This document shows positions 2-41,867 of a DNA stretch of 46,286 nt, in pieces. Position numbers and translations under genes: made by a program. The notes under the pieces were generated by a model. The model was not told the DNA's origin, searched no databases, and saw only the letters and a list, made by a program, of their open reading frames with translations. This DNA is from a virus, in IMG/VR virus record IMGVR_UViG_3300032284_000725, positions 1 through 46,286 of that record; one strand, written 5' to 3'. How positions within the stretch are numbered: position 1 is the first letter of the stretch; every line of letters starts with the position of its first letter.

Positions 2-1081
2 AACAAAGAATACACCGTGTTCCTCGCTAAGATGTATGCCCAAGGTGGATGGGGTGCAAAGATTGAAGATTTAGAAAGCAAAGTTAAACCAGCACTTGAA
101 AAATTCCACACACTTAAACTTAAAAAGAAAATCCCTGCACCACGTAATGACATCATGCGTTATGCTGATCTAGCAGACTTTGTGGCTGTAATGGATGAGT
201 ATGAAGATCCTGGTGAGAAGAAAGCCGTAGAAAAAGGTGATGCTGTTACTGCGTTTGAAAATGATCAAGTGCGTATTGTCATACCTAACGATCAAGCGGC
301 AGCTTGTTACTATGGACAAGGTACACGTTGGTGCACAGCATCAACACAGGGCACTAACTACTTCAATCACTATCACAAAGATGGGCAGATGTATATCCTA
401 CTGCCTAAACAACCTAAACATGCGGGTGAGAAATATCAACTACACTTCCCTAGTGAACAGTTCATGAACGAAGAGGATTATCCAGTTGAAAATATAGTTT
501 ACTTGCTTGAGCATCGTTTTGGTAACTTAATTCCATTCTTTAAGGAAGAAATGCCAGAAGGCTATATCAATGATTGGATCATGTTTGCTAGCAATGAAGA
601 TTTAAAAGAACCATTGATGCAGATTGGTGAAATAGTCATGGAACACGTCTGGGAGATGGTTAACGATTGGGAACACAATGACGACTATTGGTATGAGTGG
701 CTACGCAAAGAAGGTTATGTGTATCCAGAAGGGCATGAAGAAGAGGGCCAGATCGACTGGGACAAAGCCGCAGAAAATGATGTTGATTATATGAATTGGA
801 ATTATGATGTGAATGATTGGTTTTTGGCGGCTAAAGAAGCTGTTGAACTAAGTCCTACCATGGCACGACGTGCTGCAGAAGAAACCTATGAAGAAGAAAA
901 TGAAATACTGACAATAAATGAATTAGAATTAATACCGGCCTACAATATCCGACAAGCATTCCTACGTAGCAGAGACGGCGATGGCGGATTAGAAGAATGG
1001 ACATATAAACATATAGAAATGAAAAAAATAAATGGCAAATGGGAAGCCAAATATTTTAATCCCAAAAAACCAACACAATAG
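2..1081 (+). CDS. conserved phage protein, 5' end outside window
   Basis: The frame is open to the left edge (codons for N-K-E-Y-T precede the first possible GTG start at 17), so the true start lies upstream and about 359 residues are visible. A compact core near bases 310-460 reads GQGTRWCTAST, then an aromatic-rich stretch and a YILLPKQ strand. It looks like a small globular domain, but I cannot assign it to a family. The C-terminal half is very rich in Asp, Glu, Trp and Tyr. It lies 10 bases before the nucleotidyltransferase-like gene, so the two are probably cotranscribed. Its N-terminus is missing, so the capsid-targeting-like leader of its neighbours cannot be tested. Function unknown. 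Confidence 0.75.
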   Translation, partial: NKEYTVFLAKMYAQGGWGAKIEDLESKVKPALEKFHTLKLKKKIPAPRNDIMRYADLADFVAVMDEYEDPGEKKAVEKGDAVTAFENDQVRIVIPNDQAAACYYGQGTRWCTASTQGTNYFNHYHKDGQMYILLPKQPKHAGEKYQLHFPSEQFMNEEDYPVENIVYLLEHRFGNLIPFFKEEMPEGYINDWIMFASNEDLKEPLMQIGEIVMEHVWEMVNDWEHNDDYWYEWLRKEGYVYPEGHEEEGQIDWDKAAENDVDYMNWNYDVNDWFLAAKEAVELSPTMARRAAEETYEEENEILTINELELIPAYNIRQAFLRSRDGDGGLEEWTYKHIEMKKINGKWEAKYFNPKKPTQ

Positions 1082-1091
1082 GAAATAGTAA

Positions 1092-1790
1092 ATGAAAGCC
1101 AAAGATTTTGTAAAACAAAATGTAGAATATCATAACAGCCTAAACATGTATGTATGGCGTGGTGATGAAATGCGTGTAGAGGTACGATATAAACTGTTGG
1201 AAATTGCCAAACGTTTTATAGAATATCTAGACATGCCAAGTTTTAAACTTATTGATGTTGTTATGCGCGGTAGTTTAACTAACTATAATTATACAGAGTA
1301 TTCAGATATTGATCTACATCTAGTAACACGATACAGTGATCTAGAATGCAAAGATATTGCATCAGCATTTTACAAGGCTAAAAAACAGATATGGAATGAT
1401 GAACATGACATATTAATACATGATCATGAAGTAGAGTTATATGTAGAAGATGAAGGCGAACACAATGCTAGTCAAGGTGCATACAGTGTGCTGTATGGCA
1501 AATGGTTAAAAGTACCGACATACGATCCACCTGAACTAAACGATCGTGCTATTAATGCTAAAGTTGCTGGTTTAGTAAGACAGATAGATCAGGACATAGT
1601 AGACGGCAGTGTTGAAGAACTACAACATCTAAAAGACAGGCTAGTAAAAATGCGTAAAGCTGGCCTAGCAGATGGCGGAGAATACAGTACAGAAAATCTA
1701 GCATTTAAGATATTACGTAATCAAGGCTATATTGACAGACTACATAAAGCCTATGTAGAAAAAACCGACAAAGAATTAGGTGTAGATTAA
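1092..1790 (+). CDS. nucleotidyltransferase-fold protein
   Basis: This 232-residue protein carries the nucleotidyltransferase signature: Gly60-Ser61, then after a short loop Ser71-Asp72-Ile73-Asp74, the GS...DxD pair that binds metal and nucleotide in the polymerase beta / MNT superfamily. A possible third acid is in the strand near Glu113-Glu115. The enzyme class would transfer a nucleotide to a protein, RNA or small molecule; the target is unknown. The N-terminus MKAKDFVKQN resembles those of the next genes and, loosely, the T4 capsid-targeting sequence. The C-terminal 80 residues are helical and charged. No antitoxin-like partner is adjacent, which argues against a simple MNT/HEPN pair. 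Confidence 0.7.
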   Translation: MKAKDFVKQNVEYHNSLNMYVWRGDEMRVEVRYKLLEIAKRFIEYLDMPSFKLIDVVMRGSLTNYNYTEYSDIDLHLVTRYSDLECKDIASAFYKAKKQIWNDEHDILIHDHEVELYVEDEGEHNASQGAYSVLYGKWLKVPTYDPPELNDRAINAKVAGLVRQIDQDIVDGSVEELQHLKDRLVKMRKAGLADGGEYSTENLAFKILRNQGYIDRLHKAYVEKTDKELGVD

Positions 1791-1870
1791 TACAACATAA
1801 CCCAGGACCGTTTGGTGTTATGAGGCGGCTGCTGCCTTGGAGGGATGCCTAGAGTGAGCAGAGAAAAATT

Positions 1871-2869
1871 ATGAGAGCGAAAGAATTTCTAAAAGAAGAT
1901 GTAGAAACATATAGCGTAAAGACTGACGCAGGTCTAGAGTTTCCATGTAATGATTTAGATCATGCTAGAAACAAAGCCCGTAGTTTATTAAGCTATAAGA
2001 AAGCTGATAAAGTTTATATTCTTAAAAATGGCAAGGCTGTATACAGTTGGCAATTAAACATTCCACTAGAACCCTTAGATGAAAGCAAAAGATTAAATGA
2101 ATCAGCAGATGAAGAAGCATGGGAATTAGTAGGTCAACCCGTACCGGAAATACAACAATTTGTTAAAGAATTAGGTTTTAGTAAAGATAAAAAAAGTGTT
2201 GCAAAAATAGCACCAATGATTGATGCTACTCCAGACACACAAATACCTGCCGCAAGTATTCCTAAATTAAAAAATCTTGCCAATAAAGGAAATGATGTTC
2301 AAACATTAAAAGCAATACAACAGATTAGTGGTGGCCCTGATGCAGCACAGCAATATGCTAAACTAATGCAGGCACGCGATGCTGGAGAAGGCAGGAAACG
2401 TGATTATGATGTAAGTAAACTTATTGATATAGTTAAATCTGGAAATTATCCATCACCGGTATTATTAAAATTAGCTACCGGAATTTATGTAATTGGTGGT
2501 AGAACAAGATTGTATGCTGCATTGGCTTTAGGTGTCCCTGCCAAAGTAAAAGTTATTAGCAGTGCTACGTTTGCCAAACAATCTGTACAGGAAAGCGAAG
2601 CAAGATTAGAGCCTGAGGTAGAAGAATTTCTACACGGACTTACTCCAGATGATGTTGGCCATGATACTGTAGGTAATTACATCATTCACTACGAAGGTTT
2701 TACTGACCAATGCCAAGACACAAAAGAATACCAGGAAAATCCAGAGGCAGTGTTTGATGAGGTGTGGAGTGATTTTAGAAAGCGTATGGGTGGACAGAAG
2801 CCTGTCAACTATGGCGTAGTAGGCGAGCATGACTATCCTATAGTCTATAGTGTATTCCGTAGAAATTAA
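1871..2869 (+). CDS. ParB/sulfiredoxin-like domain protein
   Basis: This 332-residue protein has a central segment (about residues 180-230) ending in YVIGGRTRLYAAL, with Gly209-Gly210-Arg211-Thr212-Arg213. This matches the GxR motif of the ParB-like nuclease/sulfiredoxin fold, preceded by a typical PSPVLLKL strand. Known members bind or hydrolyse nucleotides or cut DNA; which applies here cannot be told. Residues 1-70 form a separate small domain opening with MRAKEFLKE, which resembles the leaders of the flanking genes. A C-terminal acidic/aromatic region (residues 240-332) may be a further domain. The start at 1871 follows an 80-base gap with a weak GAG-type ribosome site. Confidence 0.6.
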   Translation: MRAKEFLKEDVETYSVKTDAGLEFPCNDLDHARNKARSLLSYKKADKVYILKNGKAVYSWQLNIPLEPLDESKRLNESADEEAWELVGQPVPEIQQFVKELGFSKDKKSVAKIAPMIDATPDTQIPAASIPKLKNLANKGNDVQTLKAIQQISGGPDAAQQYAKLMQARDAGEGRKRDYDVSKLIDIVKSGNYPSPVLLKLATGIYVIGGRTRLYAALALGVPAKVKVISSATFAKQSVQESEARLEPEVEEFLHGLTPDDVGHDTVGNYIIHYEGFTDQCQDTKEYQENPEAVFDEVWSDFRKRMGGQKPVNYGVVGEHDYPIVYSVFRRN

Positions 2870-2872
2870 ATA

Positions 2873-2881
2873 GAATAAATA
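2873..2881 (+). promoter_or_regulatory. candidate T4-late-type promoter motif GAATAAATA
   Basis: The octamer AATAAATA (T4 late promoters: TATAAATA; marine relatives: NATAAATA) lies 5 bases before the 2887 start codon. A transcript from it would begin at or beside the ATG. No Shine-Dalgarno is visible before this gene. In AT-rich DNA the motif can occur by chance. Confidence 0.3.
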
Positions 2882-2886
2882 CAGTT

Positions 2887-5850
2887 ATGAGATATAAACA
2901 GTTTAAAGTTAACCTAGCCGAGGCACTTCTAAGCGAAGTTGAAATGTCACCTCGTGCATTCCAAGACTTCCTAAACAGTGACCTATCTAAGGGTATGCTA
3001 ATGGGATTTGAACTAGAAGCCTGTATCCACAATGTCCGTAACTACGATGAGGGTGAATCTGAGCCTGACATGGACTATGATGAGCGTGTATACGACATTG
3101 AAAATATCATATCTTTCTTTGGCCGTGGTGACGATCCTAATGGCGACGAAACGCTTAAAAAATTACAAAACAACATATACGATGATTTTATGTCTTGGCA
3201 GGATGCTGAGTTTGATGAATACTTACAAACTGAAGAGGCGCAAGTTACACTTAAAGAATTTATTCGCGATTATCTAGAAGACAAAGACTACAACGAACGC
3301 CAGATGAAACTGGCTTTTAATGCTGCAGAAGAAGGCAAACCCAGCGATGTATATGCTGAAGCTGAAATGTCAGCACAAGAAAAATTACGTGATGAATGGC
3401 AAGACGAGGGCAACAGTGACTTCGACAAATATTCCGATGTAATGGATATGCGTTACATGAGTGACGTATATTACAAATATGATAACTTCCTATATTGGCC
3501 CTATACTGGATATAGTGACGGACAGGACTATATAAACGTAGATTATGTAGCAGATGAATTTACTCTTAAGACAGGATTAAAAGCAGAAGGATACCAAGAC
3601 TATCACAGTGGCAGTAGACGTTCTGCGCAAGCGGAAGAGCGTTGGATTATTGAACCAGACAGCAGCATTGATTGTGATGGTAGTGAGGATGGTGGCTTAG
3701 AGTTTATTAGTCCTGCATTGCCTATAGAACGTGCAATAACAGAAATGAAAGCGGCTTTTAATTTTATTCAAGACTATGGATACACAAATAGTTCTACAGG
3801 CCTACATGTTAATATCTCAGTGCCTGGGCTAACTAATGATAATCTAGACTACGTTAAACTAGCATTGTTCTTGGGTGATAAACATATTCTACGTGAATTT
3901 GACCGATTAACTAACCGTTTCTGTGAAAGTGCCTACAACAAGGTAGCCTATAAGGTAGGTCAACTTAAACCTGAAGAGATTAAAGTAGTAATGGACAAGA
4001 TGCGAGAAGGTCTAAACCTGGCCGCAAGTAAACTTATACATTCAGGTATTACAAACAAATATACTTCAATCAACACCAAAGATGGCTATGTAGAATTCCG
4101 TGGTCCAGGCGGTGATTATCTAAGCAAGGATCCATTTGGCATAGGTAATACAGCATTACGTATGGCCTTGTGTTTACGTATAGCTTCAGATGAAAAATTA
4201 TACCAAAAAGAATACGCAAGTCGTTTAACTAAATTACTTAATGATGTAGGTGAGAAAGACGACTTAACTAAATTTAAAGATTATATAAGCCAATACCAAG
4301 CTGCATCACCTGAACGTCGTAAATATGTTCTGCAGACTATTAAGGCTGAACAACAAGGCAGAGCAGAACGCAAAAACAAAAAACCAGGTGATCGTAATCC
4401 ACAATGGATGGTTGTGCGCCGAGACAGTACTACGGGTGGCGGAATGGCAGTACATGCGCCAACAGCTATCGATGCTGTTAAGGATGTGGCCAAGGGCTGG
4501 GATATGAATCCAGTAGACCTAGAGGCAATACATTGGGACAAATGGATTGAGATAAGAAATGCAGAGATGGCTAAAGAAAATCTACCTGAATGGGTACTTA
4601 CTATAGATCCTGCAAAATGGCGCACTATGATGGTAGGAGATCCACCACCGCCACGCACAGTAAGAGCTGACAATGAGGCAAATGCCATTGACCGTGCAAA
4701 AGAAATGTTCGGGGATGAATTTAAAGTACCACATGATTGGATTAGTGTTATACCCAATCACGAAGTGGGCGAAAGGTTTATTTTTACAATATATGACGCA
4801 TTAGGACAGGTAGTAAATACAGTTCGCGGCACGTCAGCTGAAGACGCTGTAAAACAGTATGGCACAGACTATGGTGTAGATACAACCGGTTATTCAGCTA
4901 AACTTACCAGCGCACCTAGAGACGATCATATTGGAAAAAATGCCTATCTAGTACAACTGCCTAACAGTTACAAATATTGGATTAAAGCAGATTCAGCCGC
5001 TGAAGCTAGAACAAAAGCGGGTAGGATATACAAAGTAGATCCACTGGATACTACAGTTGTAACTATACAGACTAGCGGTGGCATGGAACACAGCATGACA
5101 GGTAGTACAGAAATGGGCCAAGAAGAAAGAGGATGGATTATAAAAGATCCAGTGAGAGATGGACTAGCAGTGGCCACTGTACAGGCAAGAACCAGTGATG
5201 AGGCATTACGCATATATTACAGTACTCATGATATAAGCACAAGCAATAACTATGTAGCGGTGCCTGAACAAGAACCCACAGCTAGAAACTTCCAAATAAC
5301 CAACAGTAATAGATCTTTTGAACGAGTGTTGAATAACGTTGACTTAGAGGATGCTACAGAACAAGCACGTAAATGGGAACGTGAAGAGGGCTTAACACCA
5401 AATTCATTGACAGTACGCCCAATTCCAGAAAGAGGTGAATACAGCAACTATGAAGATGCATTACGTGCGGCACAGGCTATCAATCAGCAAAATGATCCCG
5501 ACGCACCCGAACTGCCACAGGCGCACAAGTCTTGGATAAGAGAGATAAGATACAAAACTGATACACAACTATTAAATGTATATCAAAATCTTGCAGTAAC
5601 AGATAGATTAAATGAACAACAAGTAGCCTATATGCGAGGCAAGATAAAAGAAGAACTAACACGTAGAGGCATTGATGCTAATGCGCAACAAAATAAGAAA
5701 AAATGGCGTGTAGACTTAAAAGTACCCGACAGTAACTATACACGTACTACAGAAGTTTTTGCCAATAATGAGCAAGAAGCAAAACAACTAGCTAGTGAAG
5801 AATTTGGCAGCGTTGATCATAGCTATTTAACCGCAACACAGAAAAGCTAA
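2887..5850 (+). CDS. amidoligase-like protein with C-terminal repeat modules
   Basis: This is a 987-residue two-part protein. Residues about 37-470 match the pattern of the COOH-NH2 ligase (Amidoligase_2) family: GFELE at 40-44, a W253-containing WIIEPDSS strand, GLEFISPALP, STGLHVNIS around His307, and EFRGPGGDY near 403-411. Family members resemble glutamine synthetase/GCS and form amide bonds on peptides or cell-wall material. The rest is a series of about seven divergent 50-65-residue modules beginning near residues 506, 568, 630, 685, 748, 799 and 939. Each has an aromatic/hydrophobic strand, then a V-x-A-x-(S/N)-x-(E/D)-A-x-x-x-A helix. The N-terminus MRYKQFKVNLAEALLSEVE looks like a cleavable T4-type capsid-targeting leader. 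Target unknown. Confidence 0.6.
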   Translation: MRYKQFKVNLAEALLSEVEMSPRAFQDFLNSDLSKGMLMGFELEACIHNVRNYDEGESEPDMDYDERVYDIENIISFFGRGDDPNGDETLKKLQNNIYDDFMSWQDAEFDEYLQTEEAQVTLKEFIRDYLEDKDYNERQMKLAFNAAEEGKPSDVYAEAEMSAQEKLRDEWQDEGNSDFDKYSDVMDMRYMSDVYYKYDNFLYWPYTGYSDGQDYINVDYVADEFTLKTGLKAEGYQDYHSGSRRSAQAEERWIIEPDSSIDCDGSEDGGLEFISPALPIERAITEMKAAFNFIQDYGYTNSSTGLHVNISVPGLTNDNLDYVKLALFLGDKHILREFDRLTNRFCESAYNKVAYKVGQLKPEEIKVVMDKMREGLNLAASKLIHSGITNKYTSINTKDGYVEFRGPGGDYLSKDPFGIGNTALRMALCLRIASDEKLYQKEYASRLTKLLNDVGEKDDLTKFKDYISQYQAASPERRKYVLQTIKAEQQGRAERKNKKPGDRNPQWMVVRRDSTTGGGMAVHAPTAIDAVKDVAKGWDMNPVDLEAIHWDKWIEIRNAEMAKENLPEWVLTIDPAKWRTMMVGDPPPPRTVRADNEANAIDRAKEMFGDEFKVPHDWISVIPNHEVGERFIFTIYDALGQVVNTVRGTSAEDAVKQYGTDYGVDTTGYSAKLTSAPRDDHIGKNAYLVQLPNSYKYWIKADSAAEARTKAGRIYKVDPLDTTVVTIQTSGGMEHSMTGSTEMGQEERGWIIKDPVRDGLAVATVQARTSDEALRIYYSTHDISTSNNYVAVPEQEPTARNFQITNSNRSFERVLNNVDLEDATEQARKWEREEGLTPNSLTVRPIPERGEYSNYEDALRAAQAINQQNDPDAPELPQAHKSWIREIRYKTDTQLLNVYQNLAVTDRLNEQQVAYMRGKIKEELTRRGIDANAQQNKKKWRVDLKVPDSNYTRTTEVFANNEQEAKQLASEEFGSVDHSYLTATQKS

Positions 5851-5860
5851 AGGCAAATCC

Positions 5861-6934
5861 ATGCTTACTATAGAACTATTTGAGCAACAGCAAGAGCCGG
5901 TGGTTATTAAAGCCTTTCGTGCATTTTTGCCTATTGCTATTAAGCATCTTAGATTAAAATCTATTCCAAAAATTAAATTAGTAAAAGAACTACATGATAC
6001 ACATATACCTACATTTGGTCGTTACAGTAATGAGGATAAGACAGTATATGTAGTCGTAGCAAACCGCAATCCCACAGATATCATTAGAACTCTAGCACAT
6101 GAATTAGTACACTTTAAACAAGGGGAAGGACATGAACTTGACGATAAAAGCTGGCATACAGGCAGTACAGTAGAAAACGAAGCCAATGCAGATGCAGGCA
6201 TAATGATGCGCGAGTTTGACGACACATATCCAGAGTTTTTAAAAAGCCAACCTGTTGAGTTACCTGGATCAGCAGGCACAAACGAAAGCACAGAAACAAC
6301 ACACATAAATTTAGACAGAGAACAACTAGACACTATACTGGTAAAACTCTGCGCACTATTAATAAAACAAAATAAAAACGATACAGAAGATTACTATGGC
6401 ATGGTAGCTGCTGCTGTATTAGATCCAGAAGGCAACAGTGTGCTACGTGTAAATCACGCTGATGTTGACGGAGAACGCATACATGCTGAACGTGTTGCTA
6501 TAGATGCCTATGAACAGCAGTATGGCAAGGTACCACAAGACAGTATTATTATCACAACATTAAGTCCTTGTAATCAACCTAATATGCCTGAAAGACATGG
6601 CAGTAGTTGTACAGATTATATTAACAGCACAGGTATTAAACAGGTATACTGTGGTTATACAGATCCAACCCAGCACGACACCCACAAAGCACAGTTTGTT
6701 GTTACATGCACAGACAACTCAAAAATACAGGCGTTATGTAAAGACTTTGCAGACACATTTTTAGCAGAAAACTATAAGGATGGCAAAAAGCCTGGTCGTA
6801 AGGGACTTGCTAAACGTATGGGTGTAGATTGTAGTAAGAGTGTAACAGCATTAAGAAAGATAGCCAAGAACTCAAGTGGTGAAAAACAACGTATGGCACA
6901 TTGGTGTGCTAACATGAAGGCAGGTAAAAAATGA
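5861..6934 (+). CDS. zincin metallopeptidase-deaminase fusion
   Basis: This 357-residue fusion has three parts. Residues about 20-130 hold a zinc peptidase core with HELVH at 80-84, followed by a WHTGS loop and a Glu-Asn-Glu-Ala-Asn-Ala-Asp stretch that could give the third ligand. Residues about 150-300 hold a cytidine-deaminase-like zinc site: His208-Ala-Glu210, then Pro236-Cys237 and Cys250, a spacing (PC-x12-C) longer than the usual PCxxC and closer in style to RibD deaminases. Residues about 308-357 are a basic tail, GKKPGRKGLAKRMG to the Cys-Ala-Asn-Met-Lys motif, a type of tail I recall from other T4-like phage proteins. Substrates are unknown. It sits 10 bases after the amidoligase gene and overlaps the next start. 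Confidence 0.65.
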   Translation: MLTIELFEQQQEPVVIKAFRAFLPIAIKHLRLKSIPKIKLVKELHDTHIPTFGRYSNEDKTVYVVVANRNPTDIIRTLAHELVHFKQGEGHELDDKSWHTGSTVENEANADAGIMMREFDDTYPEFLKSQPVELPGSAGTNESTETTHINLDREQLDTILVKLCALLIKQNKNDTEDYYGMVAAAVLDPEGNSVLRVNHADVDGERIHAERVAIDAYEQQYGKVPQDSIIITTLSPCNQPNMPERHGSSCTDYINSTGIKQVYCGYTDPTQHDTHKAQFVVTCTDNSKIQALCKDFADTFLAENYKDGKKPGRKGLAKRMGVDCSKSVTALRKIAKNSSGEKQRMAHWCANMKAGKK

Positions 6935-7218
6935 AAATCAGTGAAATATTAAAAGAAGGCACAGAAACTTTTGATCACGTATCTAATAAACGTCTAAGAC
7001 GCATACTAGTATCTGGCGCCAAAGATCCCTCAGAAGTAGAGTGGGCTATGGATTTTACTTATGATGCTCTAATGGCAGACTATAACGACGAGGTAATTCC
7101 CAGCAGAGTCTATGATGCTAGAGCTAACGCTTACGATTCTGCAGAAAAAAGTTTTGATGAAGGCCAAGGTGATCTAGCTGCAACAATGATGCATCTAAAA
7201 CAATTTTGGAGTGTGTAG
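6931..7218 (+). CDS. small protein with MKISEILKE leader
   Basis: This 95-residue protein starts on an ATGA overlap with the stop of the fusion gene, so its translation is probably coupled. MKISEILKEGTE at the N-terminus again resembles the short Lys/Glu leaders of this block. The rest is predicted helical and acidic (many Asp, Glu, Ala), with no recognised domain. It could be a small internal head protein or a partner of the fusion protein; this is inferred only from position and leader. Confidence 0.6.
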   Translation: MKISEILKEGTETFDHVSNKRLRRILVSGAKDPSEVEWAMDFTYDALMADYNDEVIPSRVYDARANAYDSAEKSFDEGQGDLAATMMHLKQFWSV

Positions 7219-7221
7219 CAC

Positions 7222-7641
7222 ATGACCAATTGGGAAGCCTATGTTAAGGAATCCTTTGATATAGTTCGCAGAGCAGAATGCGAACTTACCGTTAATTTGA
7301 ATGAAAATCTAGAAGCATATCTTGTCCACTTGTTTGCATATTACATGGACAAACCCAAGGTTAATACAGTACCAATAGCAGTAAAAATGCTGGGCAGTGT
7401 TAATCTACCCATAGAAGCAAAAAAACAGGCACTTAAATCAGTTGGTGATGAGTGTTTACTTATTAACAGTATGGAATGGGGTAAACGTCGTTGGCCTAGC
7501 GACAACTATTATGCTGACATGGGGCAAATGGCATATATTACACGTGCCTACGCAGTTAGACCACCAGAAAATCTATATGATGATCTTGCAATACAATTCC
7601 AAACCGCAACAAAAATCCTACGCAAGTGCAGGACTGCGTAA
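7222..7641 (+). CDS. hypothetical helical protein
   Basis: 139 residues, starting 3 bases after the previous stop. It is soluble, mixed charge, mostly helical, with no motif I recognise. It is the last gene of the leftmost plus-strand run; a strong promoter for the next gene follows within 20 bases. The stop comes after RKCRTA; a basic C-terminus could bind nucleic acid, but nothing more can be said. Confidence 0.6.
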   Translation: MTNWEAYVKESFDIVRRAECELTVNLNENLEAYLVHLFAYYMDKPKVNTVPIAVKMLGSVNLPIEAKKQALKSVGDECLLINSMEWGKRRWPSDNYYADMGQMAYITRAYAVRPPENLYDDLAIQFQTATKILRKCRTA

Positions 7642-7718: not shown

Positions 7719-7979
7719 ATGGCCGCAAAAATGTATTCAGCTGAACAAAAAGCTAAACTAACTCAATTAGTTAACGAGGGAATTGCTGTATTAAGTGAGG
7801 TAGAAGATCTTACTTCTGGTCTTAATGATACGGTTAAAGCGATTGCAGAAGAATTAGAAATTAAACCAAGTTTGCTTAAAAAAGCAATCAAGATTGCACA
7901 AAAAGCCAAATTCGGTGAAACTAATCAAGATCACGAAACAGTACAGGACATCTTAGAAACAGTTGGTCGTACAGTTTGA
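7719..7979 (+). CDS. DsbA-like double-stranded DNA-binding protein (tentative)
   Basis: 86 residues, close to T4 DsbA (89), which binds double-stranded DNA at late promoters. The layout matches that family as I recall it: a helical N-terminus, a central ...AKAIAEELEIKPSLLKKAIKIA helix pair, then a short acidic C-terminal helix (DHETVQDILETVG). Identity is too low to judge by eye, so this is a fold-level guess; any small helix-turn-helix protein could look alike. It has the best promoter in the window and a strong ribosome site, so it is probably abundant. Confidence 0.45.
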   Translation: MAAKMYSAEQKAKLTQLVNEGIAVLSEVEDLTSGLNDTVKAIAEELEIKPSLLKKAIKIAQKAKFGETNQDHETVQDILETVGRTV

Positions 7980-11800: not shown

Positions 11801-12037
11801 ATGACAATGGGCAAACAGATCTATTATCATAAACTACGCAATGATGATCCAGATACTATTAGATCCCATATATCTTATCTTGAACAGCAACATAAGAGTC
11901 TAGATGAACAGATTAAGAGAGGCCACACTAACTATCTAGACGATGAACATCTAGGCAAGATGAAGCATGAAAAGCTAGGTATCAAGCGAAAGATTGTGGA
12001 ATTTAAACAAAAACTAGAACAGGTAACTAATGGATAA
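11801..12037 (+). CDS. YdcH/DUF465-like coiled-coil protein
   Basis: 78 residues, 3 bases after the clamp. Residues about 22-70 give a helical hairpin of DUF465 type: HISYLEQQHKSLDEQIKR, a short acidic turn containing LDDEHL, then KHEKLGIKRKIVEFKQKL. Members are short coiled-coil proteins of unknown role. Its end overlaps the start of the transglycosylase gene by 8 bases, which suggests coupled translation with dpdA. Confidence 0.55.
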   Translation: MTMGKQIYYHKLRNDDPDTIRSHISYLEQQHKSLDEQIKRGHTNYLDDEHLGKMKHEKLGIKRKIVEFKQKLEQVTNG

Positions 12038-13586
12038 AGTAATAGACAATCTAACCAGCAAGCAGAAGGATTATGCTATATTCCTACCAGCACTTAGTGG
12101 CTTCTATGCTAACTATATTGGTAGACAACGGCACGATCCTAACTATGTAGAACCCACACGTGTGCCAGCAGACTTTGAAAATGGCATTGAAGGTATGAAT
12201 TATCTTAATCCAGAAAAGGCATACTTTCCATATCGTTGGAGCCTATACAGTGCTGGACACGCAGAGTTAGACACAAATAAGACAGCACCAGCTGAGGACA
12301 TGGTACGTAATCGTGATCGTGCTAACAGTTGGGTATTGGGTGACTCTGGTGGTTTCCAAATTGCTAAAGGTGTATGGGAGGCTGATTGGAAAGATCCTAA
12401 CTGTCCTAAGGCACAGAAAAAACGCGAGCTAGTGTTAAAGTGGATGGACAGCTACATGGACTATGGCATGGTATTGGATATTCCGGTATGGGCAACATCT
12501 GATCCTGCTGTACGTGCAAAAACTGGCATCAGCAACTTTCAAGAAGCCGTATATGGCACAGACATCAACAATCAATACTTTATGAAGAATCGTACGGGTG
12601 CATGTAAGTTCTTAAATGTATTACAGGGCGGCGACCACGCAGAAGCAGATCGTTGGTATGACATAATGAAACACTACTGTGACCCAACTAAACATGATCA
12701 ACCGTTTGAAGGTTGGTCAATGGGTGGACAAAACAAGTGCGACATACATCTTGCATTACGCAGACTAGTTACATTAAGATTTGATGGATTACTTGAAAAA
12801 GGCAAACAAGACTGGATGCACTTCTTGGGCACAAGTAAACTTGAATGGGCATTACTGTTAACAGATGTACAACGTGCGGTACGTAAATATCACAATGAGA
12901 ATTTTACAGTTAGCTTTGATTGTGCAAGTCCGTTTTTGGCAACTGCCAATGGTGCTATATATACCAACACAGAAACAGAAGATCGTAAAAAATGGGTATA
13001 CAGGACAGTGGCCAGCGTAGATGATAAAAAATATGCATTAGATACCCGTGGTTTTGGTGATGCAGTAAGAGCAGATGGCATATTTCCTAACTTTACTGAC
13101 AGCCCAATGTCTAGTCGTATGAAAATAAATGATGTGTGTTATTATAAACCGGGCGATCTTAATAAGATAGGAAAAGAAGGCAAGACTAGCTGGGATAGTT
13201 TTAGTTATGCATTACAGATGGGACATAATATCTGGAGTCATATCACTGCTGTGCAACAGGCAAATAGACAGTATGATGCAGGTAGTGTACCTAGAATGTT
13301 AGTACAGGAAAAGCATGAACGTATATTTTTTAAACAGATAGTAGATGAGATTTTTGCTACCAGCGACCGTGACAAAGCAATGGCATTAATTGAATACCAC
13401 GAAAAATATTGGATGGCTATACCTGGCACAGGCAATGCAACTGGTAAGAAAACCAAGAACGCACACACACAGTTTAAGGCATTGTTTGAAGAAGTTGGTG
13501 CAGAAACGGAAACTATTGAATCCGCAGACGATGACCAAGAGTTTGATGAAGGCAATCTGGATAAGTTGGAAATGGATATAGTATAA
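12030..13586 (+). CDS. dpdA: DpdA-type DNA 7-deazaguanine transglycosylase
   Basis: 518 residues of the tRNA-guanine transglycosylase superfamily. GDSGGFQ places Asp105 where bacterial TGT has its general-base Asp102. LQGG near residue 203 and FEGWSMGG near 232 correspond to the base-recognition loops. SFDCASP places Asp297 where TGT has its nucleophile Asp280. The bacterial C-terminal CxCxxC...H zinc site is not there: only one Cys (DVCYY) precedes the MGHNIWSHITAVQQANR helix. The full preQ0 pathway elsewhere in the window, and the phage context, point to the DpdA branch, which exchanges guanine in DNA for preQ0 or a derivative, rather than to tRNA modification. An acidic tail follows residue 480. 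Confidence 0.85.
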   Translation: MDKVIDNLTSKQKDYAIFLPALSGFYANYIGRQRHDPNYVEPTRVPADFENGIEGMNYLNPEKAYFPYRWSLYSAGHAELDTNKTAPAEDMVRNRDRANSWVLGDSGGFQIAKGVWEADWKDPNCPKAQKKRELVLKWMDSYMDYGMVLDIPVWATSDPAVRAKTGISNFQEAVYGTDINNQYFMKNRTGACKFLNVLQGGDHAEADRWYDIMKHYCDPTKHDQPFEGWSMGGQNKCDIHLALRRLVTLRFDGLLEKGKQDWMHFLGTSKLEWALLLTDVQRAVRKYHNENFTVSFDCASPFLATANGAIYTNTETEDRKKWVYRTVASVDDKKYALDTRGFGDAVRADGIFPNFTDSPMSSRMKINDVCYYKPGDLNKIGKEGKTSWDSFSYALQMGHNIWSHITAVQQANRQYDAGSVPRMLVQEKHERIFFKQIVDEIFATSDRDKAMALIEYHEKYWMAIPGTGNATGKKTKNAHTQFKALFEEVGAETETIESADDDQEFDEGNLDKLEMDIV

Positions 13587-14363: not shown

Positions 14364-15044
14364 ATGTCTTTTAACAAAACAAAATGTGACCCTGCTCTAG
14401 GGTTAGAAATCCACAAACACTTAGTATCCAAAGGCGTAGAAACGCCAATCAAAGATAACGGTTTAGACAGGACTGCTAAAATCGATATTATTGAAACCAA
14501 GGTCCGCGATATAATGGAAACTCTTGGTTTAGACTTATCCGATGACAGTTTAGAAGAAACGCCTAAACGTGTGGCCAAGATGTACGTAGGTGAGATATTT
14601 TGGGGGCTTGACTTTGAAGCATTTCCAAAATGCACAACCGTATCTAACAAAATGGCCTATGATGAAATGGTTATTGAGCGCAACGTAAATGTACAGAGTA
14701 ACTGTGAACACCATTTGGTAGTTATTGATGGGGTAGCAACAGTAGCGTACATTCCACAAGGCAAGGTACTTGGATTAAGTAAGATTAATCGTATTGTAGA
14801 ATACTTTGCTAAACGTCCACAGATACAAGAACGTTTAACAGAACAGGTATATTACGCATTACAGTATATCTTAGGCACTGACGACATTGGTGTAGTAATT
14901 GATGCACAGCACTATTGTGTTAAGAGTCGTGGTGTAGAAGATGTAGGTAGTTCTACAGTAACCAGTAAATTAGGTGGTTGCTTTAGAAAAGATCCTGCTG
15001 TACGTCAGGAATTTATGAACCTTGTTAATGCTTGCAAACGCTAG
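14364..15044 (+). CDS. folE: GTP cyclohydrolase I (FolE)
   Basis: 226 residues (E. coli FolE 222). It opens the GTP imidazole ring and rearranges it to 7,8-dihydroneopterin triphosphate, the first step of both folate and 7-deazaguanine synthesis. The zinc ligands are visible: Cys114 in SNCEHH with His116/His117, and Cys185 in HYCVKSRGV; the SRGVED segment is also canonical. With queD, queE and queC in this window it should feed preQ0 for DpdA; it could also support the folate needs of the DHFR/thymidylate synthase pair. The ATG at 14364 has a good ribosome site after a structured leader. Confidence 0.95.
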   Translation: MSFNKTKCDPALGLEIHKHLVSKGVETPIKDNGLDRTAKIDIIETKVRDIMETLGLDLSDDSLEETPKRVAKMYVGEIFWGLDFEAFPKCTTVSNKMAYDEMVIERNVNVQSNCEHHLVVIDGVATVAYIPQGKVLGLSKINRIVEYFAKRPQIQERLTEQVYYALQYILGTDDIGVVIDAQHYCVKSRGVEDVGSSTVTSKLGGCFRKDPAVRQEFMNLVNACKR

Positions 15045-17049: not shown

Positions 17050-17225
17050 TCGTCAGCACTTATGAAGAAGGTACTAGGACAGCAAACGTATGTAAACATA
17101 CACACGATTGGGTCGTTATGGTATACGACAATAACGAATATTTAAAAACAATACTAGCAAGAAACGAAGATGAAGCTGAGATTATTGCGGAAGACTGGGT
17201 GTTAAATGAAATTAAAAGTATCTGA
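17046..17225 (+). CDS. small stand-alone repeat-module protein
   Basis: 59 residues; the ATG at 17046 overlaps the previous stop (ATGA) and is preferred over a longer frame that would run inside the membrane-protein gene. The sequence is one module of DWVVMVYDNNEYLKTILARN then EDEAEIIAEDW, the same strand-then-EA-helix pattern as the C-terminal repeats of the 987-residue protein at 2887 and the 49-residue protein at 31747. Its end overlaps queE by 20 bases. Confidence 0.6.
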   Translation: MIVSTYEEGTRTANVCKHTHDWVVMVYDNNEYLKTILARNEDEAEIIAEDWVLNEIKSI

Positions 17226-18057
17226 GATATTTTATAGTGCGCAGGGCGAAGGTCGTTTTGTTGGAGTGCCTAGTGTATTCTTAAGAACATTTGGCTGTAA
17301 CTTTACCTGTGGTGGATTTGGTATGAAGGATCGCACACAGATGAGCACAGAACGTGAGTTTATTGATCCTAAACAATATAGAATCTACGAAGAACTACCA
17401 CTGGTTACAACAGGCTGTGACAGTTATGCAAGTTGGGATCCAAGATTTAAGAACTTTAGTCCATTGTTAGAAAACGATGCGGTAGTTAAACGCATGTTGG
17501 ATCTAGTGCCTGGCAATAGCTGGCAACTAAAAAACGGCAATGATGTGCATCTTGTTATTACAGGCGGAGAACCTTTATTGGGTTGGCAACGTAGCTATCC
17601 AGAGTTATTAAGCCATAAGGATATGTACAACCTAAAGAATCTAACATTTGAAACAAATGGCACACAAGAACTGCATGAAGACTTTGCCAAATATCTAAAA
17701 CTATGGAATCGTGGCAGTAGAGAAATTACATTTAGTGTAAGTGCTAAACTAAGTGCAAGTGGCGAGCGTTGGGAAGATGCTGTTAAACCTGATATTGTTA
17801 AGAGTTATGAAAAGGTTGGTACTACATATCTTAAGTTTGTAGTTGAAAAACCACAGGACTTTGATGAAGTAGATCGTGCTGTAGAAGTATACCGTAAGGC
17901 AAAATTTAAGGGTGTTGTATACATTATGCCTGTAGGCGGTGTAGTAAAAGTATACGATGGAAATAAATTTAATGTAGCAGATGAATGTATGCTACGTGGC
18001 TATAATTATAGTCCAAGATTGCATGTTGATTTATGGGGTAATAGTTGGGGCAAGTAG
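17206..18057 (+). CDS. queE: 7-carboxy-7-deazaguanine synthase (QueE)
   Basis: 283 residues, a radical-SAM enzyme that converts carboxy-tetrahydropterin to 7-carboxy-7-deazaguanine. N-terminal FYSAQGEGRFVGVPSVFLR and TGGEPL near residue 122 are typical of QueE. The 4Fe-4S cysteines are Cys31 and Cys35 (GCNFTC) and, after an insertion, Cys71 (TGCDSYASWD), a CX3C-X35-C spacing instead of the usual short motif. All three ligands are present, so activity is expected. FETNGTQ and a C-terminal HVDLWGNSWGK complete the fold. It supplies QueC. Confidence 0.93.
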   Translation: MKLKVSEIFYSAQGEGRFVGVPSVFLRTFGCNFTCGGFGMKDRTQMSTEREFIDPKQYRIYEELPLVTTGCDSYASWDPRFKNFSPLLENDAVVKRMLDLVPGNSWQLKNGNDVHLVITGGEPLLGWQRSYPELLSHKDMYNLKNLTFETNGTQELHEDFAKYLKLWNRGSREITFSVSAKLSASGERWEDAVKPDIVKSYEKVGTTYLKFVVEKPQDFDEVDRAVEVYRKAKFKGVVYIMPVGGVVKVYDGNKFNVADECMLRGYNYSPRLHVDLWGNSWGK

Positions 18058-22108: not shown

Positions 22109-22469
22109 TTTTGATATCGATGGGGTAATCTACATGGGCAAAGTTCATACAGGTGTGTGGCCTGGTCCCAATGATGTTATCATAACTGGTCGTAGTTTTG
22201 AAGAAGAATCTGAAACACTTGAGATGTTGCGTGCCCGTGGCATAGACAACAAGGTGTATTTTAATCCCTTGGCATACGAAGAAAAAACTCGGTCAACATC
22301 TGGCTTGCATAAAGCTAAAACTATTGCTAAACTAAATGTAAAGATACATTTTGAAGATGATCCTATACAGGCTAAGGCTATTAGGGATCTATGTCCAGAT
22401 GTTACAGTGGTTATGCTAGAGCATGACTTAATAGAAAAAGAAAACAAGCGACACAAGGATTGGCAATGA
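22101..22469 (+). CDS. HAD-superfamily phosphatase-like protein
   Basis: 122 residues with the core HAD motifs: FDIDGV (Asp5, Asp7), VIITGRS, a Lys in SGLHKAKTI, and HFEDDP. It lacks a cap domain, as small phage and polynucleotide phosphatases do. It overlaps the inositol-phosphate synthase by 8 bases and QueC by 4, so translation is coupled. One reading is that it dephosphorylates inositol phosphate; a nucleotide or DNA-end phosphatase is equally possible from sequence. Confidence 0.75.
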   Translation: MNSFDIDGVIYMGKVHTGVWPGPNDVIITGRSFEEESETLEMLRARGIDNKVYFNPLAYEEKTRSTSGLHKAKTIAKLNVKIHFEDDPIQAKAIRDLCPDVTVVMLEHDLIEKENKRHKDWQ

Positions 22470-23224
22470 AAATAGTAATCTTATACAGTGGTGGATTAGA
22501 CAGTTACCTAATGTTAAAATGGGCTGAGAAGTATCACCCCACAGCAGAAGTAAAATGTCTATACTATGCTCATGGTGCAGAGAGTGAACAGGAAGAAATC
22601 AGTCTACTACCAGACTATGTAGAAGTTAGACAGATGCAGTGGCTAGGTGATACTATTAAACCACAGCCTAAAAAGTCTGATCCATTTGCTGGTGCTATCT
22701 ATATACCTGGACGTAATCTTGCTTTTGTAACATTAGCTGCATGCCAAGAACTACCAGATGAGATATGGTTAGGTGTGTTAGCAGATGAAAACAATGAACA
22801 GGCCACAGATAAGAATGATAAATTCCGTAACCTTGCTATGGAATCTATAAACTATGCATTGAGTCCTTTTGTAGATAAGGTTAACATACGTTTTCCATTT
22901 GCAGAGGCAGACTTTACTAAGTTAGATACTGTACGTTGGGCATTAGACAATGGCGTACCCAAGCAGGAGATAGAAAAGACAGTAAGCTGTTGGCACGCAC
23001 ATGATGGTAAACATTGTGGCAAATGTAAACAATGCGTTAAACGATTCTTGGTGTTTGATGCCGTTGGTCTTAAAACAGATTATGTTGTTGAACCTATGTC
23101 AGTGCCTGCTCAGGTAGAACTATGTGATAGATATGTTGTGCTGGTAGACGGTGGAGGTGGCAACGCAGATGAGATTGCTATGTCTAACATGATTAAAGCA
23201 TATAGATCAAAAGCACATGACTAG
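22466..23224 (+). CDS. queC: 7-cyano-7-deazaguanine synthase (QueC)
   Basis: 252 residues from the ATG at 22466 (ATGA overlap with the previous stop; AAGGA 6 bases upstream); a TTG two codons earlier is less likely. It uses ATP and ammonia to turn carboxy-deazaguanine into preQ0. The ATP-pyrophosphatase P-loop SGGLDS is at residues 9-14, PGRNLAF follows, and a C-terminal zinc site is given by CWHAHDGKHCGKCKQC. No glutamine amidotransferase domain is fused, so this is not the GAT-QueC of archaeosine-type phages and the end product is probably preQ0. Confidence 0.93.
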   Translation: MKIVILYSGGLDSYLMLKWAEKYHPTAEVKCLYYAHGAESEQEEISLLPDYVEVRQMQWLGDTIKPQPKKSDPFAGAIYIPGRNLAFVTLAACQELPDEIWLGVLADENNEQATDKNDKFRNLAMESINYALSPFVDKVNIRFPFAEADFTKLDTVRWALDNGVPKQEIEKTVSCWHAHDGKHCGKCKQCVKRFLVFDAVGLKTDYVVEPMSVPAQVELCDRYVVLVDGGGGNADEIAMSNMIKAYRSKAHD

Positions 23225-23952: not shown

Positions 23953-24501
23953 ATGGCACATATAATTGATAAAACGTTTGAATTCTGTTATGGACACAGA
24001 GTTTGGACACAGAAACTTAATGGTGAATATGCGGCAGACTTAAAGTGTGCTTGCCGTCACCTACATGGACATGAAGGCAAGATGCAGGTTTATCTAAAGA
24101 GCCAATATGGCAATTTAGATGCTACTGGCATGGTAACAGACTTTAGACACTTAGAGTGGCTTAAAAAGTGGATTAACACTTACATTGACCACCAATTTAT
24201 TATTGATAGGAACGATCCTTTATATGACAAAATTATTGGCGAACGTGGGCTTGTGCCTATACTTGTGCCTAACACTGATCATGTTGCTGGTTGGCACCTT
24301 GACCTGGATGGGCTTGATGTTAATACTCCTGAGTATGAGTATTATGAGGGATTTATGGTCGTAGAATTTGTACCAACAAGTGAAAACTTATCTAGTTGGA
24401 TGGCAGACATAGTGGACATTAAAATGAAACCACTTAATGTAACAGTTGACCATATTGATTGGTGGGAAACTCCTAAGAGTCGTAGTGTATTTTACAAGTA
24501 A
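23953..24501 (+). CDS. queD: 6-carboxytetrahydropterin synthase (QueD)
   Basis: 182 residues, longer than E. coli QueD (121). It converts dihydroneopterin triphosphate to 6-carboxytetrahydropterin. Zinc ligands are His15 (CYGHRVW) and His38/His40 in CRHLHGH, with Cys34 as the catalytic nucleophile; MVTDFRHL and PTSENL are the other family motifs. The extra length is an insertion around residues 93-135. It completes the FolE-QueD-QueE-QueC set. It starts immediately after the 23710 gene and shares its end base with the next ATG. Confidence 0.92.
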   Translation: MAHIIDKTFEFCYGHRVWTQKLNGEYAADLKCACRHLHGHEGKMQVYLKSQYGNLDATGMVTDFRHLEWLKKWINTYIDHQFIIDRNDPLYDKIIGERGLVPILVPNTDHVAGWHLDLDGLDVNTPEYEYYEGFMVVEFVPTSENLSSWMADIVDIKMKPLNVTVDHIDWWETPKSRSVFYK

Positions 24502-36861: not shown

Positions 36862-36884
36862 TTAAGAATTAGTTAGTATCTTAA
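36862..36884. terminator. weak inverted repeat at the convergent junction
   Basis: TTAAGA (36862-36867)/TCTTAA (36879-36884) around an 11-base loop lies where plus- and minus-strand genes meet. On the minus strand CAGTTTTTTATC follows shortly after. Possibly a bidirectional terminator, but AT-rich and weak. Confidence 0.3.
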
Positions 36885-39800
36885 ACAAATAAGCCAACAT
36901 TACTGCTGCTTAGTCTGGTTACCTTATACCAACTACCACGCAATGGTGTTACAGTACCTGCGCTTGAGGTAATCTGCAATCTAAAGTTAGTAGCACTGGC
37001 ATTTTCCAACATTACCTTAATCCTTGCATGATGTACTACCGCTGTAGTTAATGTCTGTGTTACAGGCATAGCTACTGCTGCCGCAGTATTATTTGTAACA
37101 GCACCTTCAGTTGTACCTAAACCTGAACTAATGCCAGCAATATTACTTTGATAGTAATAGGCATTTAGATTTGTTACAACAGCCTGGCTAGTCAATGTGT
37201 ATGTTACTGTACCGGCTGTATTTTTTAAGTAATAGATATCAAATTCTATATCATATACACCACTAGCAACTAGGGGTATTGAACTAGTACTGCCAAAGTA
37301 ATCTGCTATGCTACTGCCAATTGGTGATGCATTAGCAGTTAATCTAAAATATTGTTCATTAGGTATAGCACCTCTACCGTTGGTTAGGTTGCTGGTTGCA
37401 TACCAAATTGAGCCATCGTATTCGACTGTTCCTGCTACTGTGCTAGATAATAAAGTGCCACCTGCAACTTTTAATGGTGCAACACTGGTTGTTTGTTGTA
37501 AAGATAAATTACCACTGATGCCAACACCACCTGCAACCACTACTGCACCTGAGCTAATGCCCGTTGAAATAGTTGATGCGTTTGCGTAAACCTGACCTGT
37601 TACCACTAATGATGTTTGATCACCTAGTCTAGTTACATTTGTTTGGCTTGCTGTCTGTAATGTCCCTGTTAATGTTGTGCTGCTGCTAGCACCAATGCTT
37701 GTGACGCCACCCAATGTAGTAATATTAGGTTGACTTGCTGTTTGTGTAAGACCATATATGTTTGTTGCATTTAGATTATTAACAAAAGCATTACTCCAGA
37801 ATAAACTAGTACTGCCTATGTTTGCACTTAGATTTGCACTTGGTGTTATTGCACCATATGCTGTAAGAGCACCGGTAACTATAGGATCGTATATAACATT
37901 TGGATCTGTTACTGCTACCTGACCTGCTTGTGGTTCTGCAATATTACTGAATAGATACCATTTTCCATCAGAATCGTTGCGAACAAATCCTGTATGGGCA
38001 TAAGCATTAGCTGGTCCACCAACAAAATGACTGTAAAAGCCAATATCATAGTTATAAGGATATACGTTACCAGTAGCAAGATATAATAAAGGATCTTGCA
38101 CAGTTAAAATTGTAGAAGTTGTGCCTATTAGATTTGCTACATATAGATTGCCACCAATTCTTACGTCACCTGCAATACCAACACCACCTGCAACAACCAA
38201 TGCGCCAGTAGTACTGCTAGTAGATACGGTAGTAGCATTAGCAAAAATTGTATTAGTAACACTTAGCTGTGTTAATGTGCCTAAGCTAGTAACATTAGGC
38301 TGACTTGATGTTTGTAAAGTACCATACTGATTTGTAGCATATAAATTAGTTGTATATACAGTATTCCACCATTGACTAGAAACACCACCTAAGTTAACAC
38401 TAGAATTACTGCTAGGTACAAGTGCTGATCCTAAACTAATTGATGTATTATTTAATGTGTACAATAAACTCTGTGGTGTAACTGCTATGTTGCTTAAAGT
38501 ACCTGTTTGTGTCTGTGCATTGCTGGCTAACTGTACAATACCAGATGTTGTAGTGGTAGCAATTTTTTGGCTTAATGTGTATGGTGTAACTGCTTTATAT
38601 AATGTTGGGCTTGGACTTGCAGTAGTAGTTTCAGCAGCACTTGCTGTTTGTATAATACCAATCTGTGTTTCTGTTGCAATTCTGCTACTTAGACCTGCAG
38701 GTGTAATTGCTGTAGTTAAATCTGTGCCTGTAATTGTTTCAGCTACTGTTGCTAATCTAACTATACCACCAGTTGTAGAGCTAGCTGTTCTACTGTTAAG
38801 ACCTGCTGGTGTAATTGCAATATTTCCTAATGTACCTGCTTGAGTTTCTGAGCTAGTAGCAAGTCTTACTATACCCGCTGCTGATGTAGTTGCAGAAATA
38901 ATATCTAAACCAGAAGATAATACATAGCTTAATGCTGCAGGTGTAATTGCTTTGGTATTGTCTGTACCTACACCAGCTTCATAACTAGTTGCGATCTGTA
39001 TCTTTCCGGGAGTTGACACTGAAGATTGTACAACAGTCCATATACTACCGTCTGCACTAACAGTTACATCACCTTTACTACCAGTACTTGCGGTTGCTAT
39101 TGCACTTAATCCCAAGTTACTTCTTGCAGCTGATGCCGTAGTTGCGCCTGTACCACCACTAGCTACAGCTAACGGTGTTGTTAAAATTATACTAGCAGAT
39201 GCCGCATCAACAGTTAAAACTTTAGTCTGTGTGCCTGCGGTGTTCACCCAAAATTCTGTTGTGCCATTTAGGTCGGAATTTGTTATCTTAGCAACAGGTG
39301 AGGCTGTTGTTAATTTTAGTGTAGAATTAACATCAAACTCATTGGCTTGAAACGTATAATTTAATACTGTGCTTTGATCGTTTCTTAAAAATACGCTAGA
39401 ACTTAAACCATTTAATGACGCCGCACTGGCTGCATTGCCTGTTATCTGTGCATTAGGTACAACATTAGTACTTACTAGATTTATACCAGGCTGAATTACT
39501 GAGAATCCTGATATTGTTGTTGCAGGTGTAAATGTAACATCTGATATAATAGCTACTACTGTATCGTTGGCATAGAATTTTACAAGGTCGTGGTTAACCC
39601 CAACTGTATCTAATACAGTTTCTACTATTGCACCAGTAGTGCCATTAGCACTGCCATAAGTAGGTCCTATAGTTACCCAACCTGCTGTAGATGCGCTATA
39701 TACTTTTAACTGTAGATTAGTTGTATCAAACCATAAATCACCATTATTAGGATTAGTTGGGCTTGAATTAGCTGCGGTACTGCTTGCTATGTGTTTCCAT

Positions 39801-40048
39801 GCACTATTTACATAGACATTTAATACACTATTGAAACTATCGTACCATAGTTGACCTTCGAGCGGTTTAAGGGGTGCGGTTGGATTACTAAAATTTTCTA
39901 GTAGTGTTACGAAATTTTCATTTAGAAAATTGCCATAACCAGCATAGTTTTTGCCTATTAAGGCAAGACTAGTTGATTGTGTATCTATTGTTCCATCTGT
40001 TACTATTGCTACCTGCGTACCAGAAGTATTGTTAATTTGATATGGCAT
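36881..40048 (-). CDS. tail fibre protein, paralogue A
   Basis: 1055 residues. The N-terminal ~190 (VAIVTDGTIDTQSTSLALIG, GNFLNENFVTLLENF, EGQLWYD, GDLWFDT, VKFYANDTVVAIIS) is shared with the genes at 40071 and 41868, so it is probably the virion-attachment part. The middle is a run of ~35-residue repeats (about residues 340-530) of the form SGIVRLAT...ETQTGT...AITPAGLSSR, as in side-tail-fibre proteins. Later repeats (TTLGTLTQLSVTN, VVAGGVGI(S/A)G) and a non-repetitive C-terminal domain (about residues 880-1055) follow; the latter is likely the receptor-binding or trimerisation tip. Translation start has GGTAGATCAA upstream, a weak ribosome site. Confidence 0.85.
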   Translation of the reverse strand: MPYQINNTSGTQVAIVTDGTIDTQSTSLALIGKNYAGYGNFLNENFVTLLENFSNPTAPLKPLEGQLWYDSFNSVLNVYVNSAWKHIASSTAANSSPTNPNNGDLWFDTTNLQLKVYSASTAGWVTIGPTYGSANGTTGAIVETVLDTVGVNHDLVKFYANDTVVAIISDVTFTPATTISGFSVIQPGINLVSTNVVPNAQITGNAASAASLNGLSSSVFLRNDQSTVLNYTFQANEFDVNSTLKLTTASPVAKITNSDLNGTTEFWVNTAGTQTKVLTVDAASASIILTTPLAVASGGTGATTASAARSNLGLSAIATASTGSKGDVTVSADGSIWTVVQSSVSTPGKIQIATSYEAGVGTDNTKAITPAALSYVLSSGLDIISATTSAAGIVRLATSSETQAGTLGNIAITPAGLNSRTASSTTGGIVRLATVAETITGTDLTTAITPAGLSSRIATETQIGIIQTASAAETTTASPSPTLYKAVTPYTLSQKIATTTTSGIVQLASNAQTQTGTLSNIAVTPQSLLYTLNNTSISLGSALVPSSNSSVNLGGVSSQWWNTVYTTNLYATNQYGTLQTSSQPNVTSLGTLTQLSVTNTIFANATTVSTSSTTGALVVAGGVGIAGDVRIGGNLYVANLIGTTSTILTVQDPLLYLATGNVYPYNYDIGFYSHFVGGPANAYAHTGFVRNDSDGKWYLFSNIAEPQAGQVAVTDPNVIYDPIVTGALTAYGAITPSANLSANIGSTSLFWSNAFVNNLNATNIYGLTQTASQPNITTLGGVTSIGASSSTTLTGTLQTASQTNVTRLGDQTSLVVTGQVYANASTISTGISSGAVVVAGGVGISGNLSLQQTTSVAPLKVAGGTLLSSTVAGTVEYDGSIWYATSNLTNGRGAIPNEQYFRLTANASPIGSSIADYFGSTSSIPLVASGVYDIEFDIYYLKNTAGTVTYTLTSQAVVTNLNAYYYQSNIAGISSGLGTTEGAVTNNTAAAVAMPVTQTLTTAVVHHARIKVMLENASATNFRLQITSSAGTVTPLRGSWYKVTRLSSSNVGLFV

Positions 40049-40070
40049 TTGATCTACCTAATAAGTACTT

Positions 40071-41840: not shown

Positions 41841-41867
41841 GTCTATTACCTGTTAAAATTTATATTA

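Follow-up and report, generated by a model that had tools for sequence, protein, structure and literature searches.

The genes upstream of the DNA polymerase in a fragment of a giant myovirus genome probably form a cargo cassette of the T4 type, expressed late and targeted to the capsid. Because the leaders of the encoded proteins resemble the tag by which T4 loads its head, the enzymes are probably packed in the particle and released at infection. The leaders are not due to chance. We strongly infer that the block proteins are packaged in this phage; their cleavage, ejection and enzymatic roles are putative.

Source phage and its relatives

The window (the whole stretch of DNA analysed, 46,286 nt) comes from a T4-superfamily myovirus, of which it represents a 46-kb fragment; the phage belongs to a giant, uncultured and abundant freshwater lineage. 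Its DNA polymerase is 77–84% identical to those of many freshwater IMG/VR contigs, and its nearest isolates are Phosso and Atu_ph07 (47–49%). In relatives of the phage, an island of varied enzymes and domains with a common short leader lies 5′ of the DNA polymerase, and the gene content of the island varies among close relatives.

Genes for GTP cyclohydrolase I, a radical-SAM QueE-like protein, QueC and a QueD-like protein (14364–15044, 17206–18057, 22460–23224 and 23953–24501 of the window) make 7-deazaguanine DNA modification probable, and a 518-aa protein without a Pfam match (12030–13586) may be a DpdA/TGT-like base exchanger. The phage also carries a myo-inositol-1-phosphate synthase gene (PF01658; 20897–22108) and, on the minus strand at 36881–43865, three successive tail-fibre-like proteins (1055, 589 and 665 aa), the common N-terminal domain of which is repeated in relatives and in Atu_ph07 too. 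A Dps-like ferritin gene (PF00210; L352:11139–11612) recurs in the leader islands of G001, G002 and G004–G008, and is absent from the window.

Genes and domains of the block

The five N-termini singled out in the preliminary description, which had been made from the sequence alone, are all present, and a sixth leader gene at 7222, missed there, adjoins them (Table 1). The block may begin with the gene at 17, whose own start may precede the window, which would make its leader unreadable.

Table 1. Features of the block upstream of the DNA polymerase (window coordinates)
Feature	Position	Strand	Leader, motif or remark
Upstream protein	17..1081	+	possibly first block member
Nucleotidyltransferase-fold enzyme	1092..1790	+	MKAKDFVKQ (1092–1118); GS...SDIDL motif; phrog_36119
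332-aa protein, called "ParB-like" earlier (unconfirmed)	1871..2869	+	MRAKEFLKE, L-K-E site (1871–1897)
Late-promoter-like box	2874..2881	+	AATAAATA; starts 13 nt before the start at 2887
Amidoligase-domain protein, 987 aa	2887..5850	+	start MRYKQFKVN; leader MRYKQFKVNLAE followed by A (2887–2922); PF12224
Zincin (HELVH), cytidine-deaminase fold and C-terminal KPGRKGLAKR domain	5861..6934	+	start MLTIELFEQ; leader MLTIELFE (5861–5884)
95-aa protein	6931..7218	+	MKISEILKE (6931–6957)
139-aa conserved protein	7222..7641	+	start MTNWEAYVKES; leader MTNWEAYVKE (7222–7251)

Three of the domain assignments made earlier stand. The amidoligase is recognised by Amidoligase_2 (E=4.5e-8, 33.7 bits against a curated Pfam cut-off of 22) and the cytidine deaminase fold by PF00383 (E=8e-10, 38.9 bits against a cut-off of 25), the latter with a HAE...PC...C zinc motif read in the sequence and the zincin motif N-terminal to it; the nucleotidyltransferase is weak in Pfam and is identified by its clear sequence motif and a PHROG match of 4e-47. 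The fourth assignment, a ParB-like nuclease domain in the 332-aa protein, found no match in Pfam, PHROG, NCBIfam or PDB, and the label is an unconfirmed reading of a motif-like stretch. A single-sequence structure model of this protein (pLDDT 46) was too poor for use, and a PDB search with its core returned designed armadillo repeats only.

Used alone as a query, the amidoligase found no relative among viral contigs. A homolog in G035 starts MKITEF and likewise has a late box at −13, and the homolog in Atu_ph07 (gp196, AUZ94978) lies inside a cluster of virion-protein genes spanning CDS 170–215 by our own count. Scans of the block with PADLOC and NCBIfam gave no useful match, Rfam placed no family within the window, and the intergenic stretch at 1791–1870 folds no better than its shuffles (z −1.4). 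Adjoining the block is an 86-aa gene (7719–7979) that matches the phage transcriptional regulator family phrog_639 and, weakly, T4 DsbA, and that is kept before the polymerase in most relatives.

A leader shared by unrelated proteins

Ten N-terminal residues are enough for targeting in T4 IPIII, and mutation has shown that residues 4 and 7 weigh most for targeting and residues 8 and 10 for processing, while T4 gp21 cleaves after L/I-x-E (PMC9026906). By these rules the block leaders present hydrophobic targeting positions followed by a cleavage-like L/I-x-E; the leader of the nucleotidyltransferase keeps the hydrophobic pair, and Gln replaces Glu so that it ends VKQ and not VKE. In the 139-aa protein the leader is hydrophobic at positions 4, 7 and 8 and has Glu as residue 10; its codons are no more conserved than the remaining protein, so that conservation at this gene is neutral for the reading.

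With a score that takes Glu at residue 8–13 plus hydrophobic residues at −2, −3 and −6 from it, 5 of the 6 block genes reach 2 or more, against 3 of the 63 other genes of the window (hypergeometric 2.9e-5), a comparison that is post hoc because the block had been picked by the earlier reader. An independent test therefore drew on relatives. The pattern used was taken from the N-termini of T4 head proteins (IPI, Alt, gp24 and gp22). It was found at 36 of 1784 non-redundant gene starts from the window plus relatives, compared with 23 of 7418 internal Met sites (p=2e-12), and shuffles gave a mean of 6.3 and a maximum of 16. A looser form of the leader is concentrated in the 10 kb upstream of the polymerase (43/389 genes vs 33/1372 elsewhere, p=2e-11).

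The proteins that carry the leader are diverse: 46 with the strict form fall into 21 body families (single linkage, G035 included). The zincin, deaminase and KPGRKGLAKR domain that are fused in the window are separate genes in relatives, each with a leader of its own (MRLREFAEPE, MIINEILTAQ and MKINEVITEN; MRASDFLIEG is a further leader among the separate zincin and deaminase homologs). Other leader proteins of the lineage include a cytidylyltransferase-like enzyme (MFIADLFETYVAEA...PGRFQPFHKGH), a GP88-domain protein and an amidoligase. Judged by these genes, the leader acts as a module common to unrelated mature domains, which supports the capsid-targeting character first proposed for it, as does the enrichment of late boxes at leader genes described below.

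Head machinery of the lineage

The window, being a fragment, holds no head genes, and the head machinery was read from contigs of the lineage, which encodes a gp21 protease, gp22 scaffold, gp23 capsid protein and gp55. The check for a prohead protease that had been proposed is answered indirectly: a gp21-type S77 protease occurs in 16 of 20 head-region contigs, among them G033, G035 and G043, where it shares a contig with a polymerase 76–81% identical to that of the window. Head genes in the lineage run in the order portal, small core protein, core protein, gp21, gp22, capsid protein. The capsid protein has a conserved LxE directly before (N/S/T)A(S/T)AGAT (e.g. NASAGAT), and the small core protein after the portal has a leader of the type seen in MLTIELFE of the window, with MNIFELFD or MIVTELFD as its start. 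A search of head-gene contigs from cousin phages did not find the nucleotidyltransferase.

The leader of the core protein, together with the influence of T4 IPIII on head assembly (PMC9026906), speaks for a reading in which the leaders place scaffold or core components that build a very large head, the enzymes acting in assembly and not being injected (the zincin might be a second protease of the head, for example, or the amidoligase a cross-linker). We regard this as unlikely, since the content of the island varies among close relatives, which suits cargo in an arms race better than conserved assembly factors.

Late-promoter-like boxes

Across the lineage, a TAAATA-type box within 60 nt upstream precedes 20 of 35 leader genes and 239 of 1693 others (p=6.5e-9; p=0.058 for G035 by itself). 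The box is also found upstream of baseplate genes, including a gp25-like gene in G001 with the same box and spacing as the amidoligase gene, and a homolog of gp55, the late sigma factor, is encoded in 7/7 lineage contigs. Among the block genes in the window, the amidoligase gene alone has a late box of its own. From these sequences we propose that the block would be expressed late, with gp55 reading a promoter of the TATAAATA type.

The distance from box to start is bimodal, at 11–13 and 25–31 nt (G001–G005 and G035; loci L083–L114 and L346–L363), and the short class would yield nearly leaderless late mRNAs. In the window as a whole ATAAATA is strongly depleted (5 occurrences, where shuffles predict about 24), as though late boxes were avoided outside promoters.

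Homologs in purified virions of S-CREM2

Homologs of the window nucleotidyltransferase occur in cyanophages, and in one of these, S-CREM2, the homolog (gp156; 37% identity over 97%) was detected by mass spectrometry in CsCl-purified virions with 6 peptides and 15.2% coverage (PMC10665884 Table 3), a signal that may reflect adhering contamination because the peptide coverage is only 15%. Its neighbours gp154 and gp155 were likewise detected (PMC10665884), and gp154 has the leader MKNFSSFLTEA. The check by virion proteomics suggested in the preliminary description is thereby answered indirectly for the nucleotidyltransferase, through a homolog in another phage. A search found no relative of the window amidoligase in S-CREM2.

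A leader form modelled on IPIII occurs in 5 of 28 non-structural proteins detected in S-CREM2 virions and in 1 of 167 undetected proteins (p=2.4e-4), a value that was not fully pre-specified and needs correction for the forms tried, as this form alone worked; the first strict pattern gave no separation (0/52 detected vs 2/167 undetected). The five leaders are MKDFDSFLEE, MKDLHSFLTE, MKRFDAFLTE, MQTFSMFFSE and MKNFSSFLTE. A late box precedes 17 of the 28 detected non-structural genes and 25 of the 167 undetected ones (p=9e-7). The S-CREM2 virion proteins gp6, gp13, gp14, gp136 and gp154 (L131, L133) bear T4-like leaders; a SAM hydrolase and a kinase are among the leader-bearing virion proteins, and the leaders go unmentioned in PMC10665884.

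The position of the block counts against the cargo reading, as it runs co-directionally into the DNA polymerase, usually an early gene, and ends within 0.7 kb of it. Its products could then be ordinary cytoplasmic enzymes of the early or middle phase, their N-terminal likeness being the common start of a Met-Lys amphipathic helix, and the missing cleavage Glu of the nucleotidyltransferase and the scarcity of late boxes within the block would fit. Such an explanation appears quite improbable to us in view of the excess of leaders at N-termini over internal Met, their clustering, the late boxes in the lineage and the presence of gp156 in virions. That the leader addresses some other intracellular site, such as a replication factory, or another partner, such as a chaperone encoded by the phage, is very improbable even with replication genes adjoining the block, as the leader matches the T4 capsid-targeting sequence most closely and as leader form and late box follow virion presence in S-CREM2.

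Proposed mechanism and implications

For the capsid-targeted cargo cassette that we favour, each product would start with a capsid-targeting leader of 8–12 residues, with the hydrophobic spacing of IPIII and then an L/I-x-E-like site. The leader would bind a gp22-type scaffold core during head assembly, so that the prohead incorporates the enzyme, and a gp21-type S77 protease would cut after Glu (LKE, LAE or LFE), leaving the mature enzyme free in the head. At infection the freed enzyme would exit with the DNA and act on the host ahead of phage gene expression. It would probably target host proteins, nucleotides or nucleotide signals, either to take over the cell or to counter its defences; judging by their domains, the nucleotidyltransferase, the deaminase and the amidoligase could modify one or another of these.

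That tags allow varied proteins to be loaded in T4-like phages has been suggested earlier (PMC9026906), and what is new here lies in the lineage, in its cargo and in the tie to published virion proteomics. It is about an even chance that this abundant lineage of giant freshwater phages keeps a fast-changing island of injected effectors, in which a swappable tag of 8–12 residues and a late box make any domain into head cargo, so that tag plus box could reveal new anti-defence or takeover enzymes from sequence, including amidoligases and deaminases, which are not known as injected effectors. If the cargo reading is right, many unannotated proteins of common freshwater phages would be candidates for enzymes that reach the host as infection begins, the stage at which anti-defence proteins act. 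The T4 capsid-targeting rule would then reach giant phages and large enzymes, and tag plus box would be a simple, readable signature that can be tested at once in cultured relatives.

Comparison with known systems

The closest likeness is to the T4 internal proteins IPI–IPIII and Alt (PMC9026906, PMC3012670), which share with the block a short N-terminal leader of hydrophobic residues followed by L/I-x-E, a gp21-type S77 protease, late-promoter-like boxes and variable cargo on a common leader. The T4 cargo is packaged and is made up of small proteins that counter restriction or of an ADP-ribosyltransferase, whereas here it is predicted from genes and its enzymes are large and in many cases multidomain (amidoligase, zincin-deaminase, nucleotidyltransferase); the T4 leaders have 10 residues, while those of the window lineage often have 8–9. 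S-CREM2 (PMC10665884) shares the nucleotidyltransferase homolog, in virions with gp154 and gp155, and several of its other virion enzymes start MK.F..FL.E, but it infects Synechococcus, and the set it packages comprises a SAM hydrolase, a kinase, a Cas9-annotated protein and a cytidylyltransferase.

Phages and conjugative elements also encode polyvalent proteins, presumed to pass into the cell along with the DNA, which similarly mix and match effector domains such as zincins and nucleotide enzymes (PMC5512222); they fuse these domains in one giant protein, whereas here the domains are mostly separate genes with a common short leader. The ejection proteins of phiKZ and SPN3US are likewise head proteins of giant phages that are cleaved after x-x-E and ejected, but their propeptides are mostly longer than 100 residues and they are cut at S/A-x-E by distant, S80-type relatives of the protease (PMC5694885).
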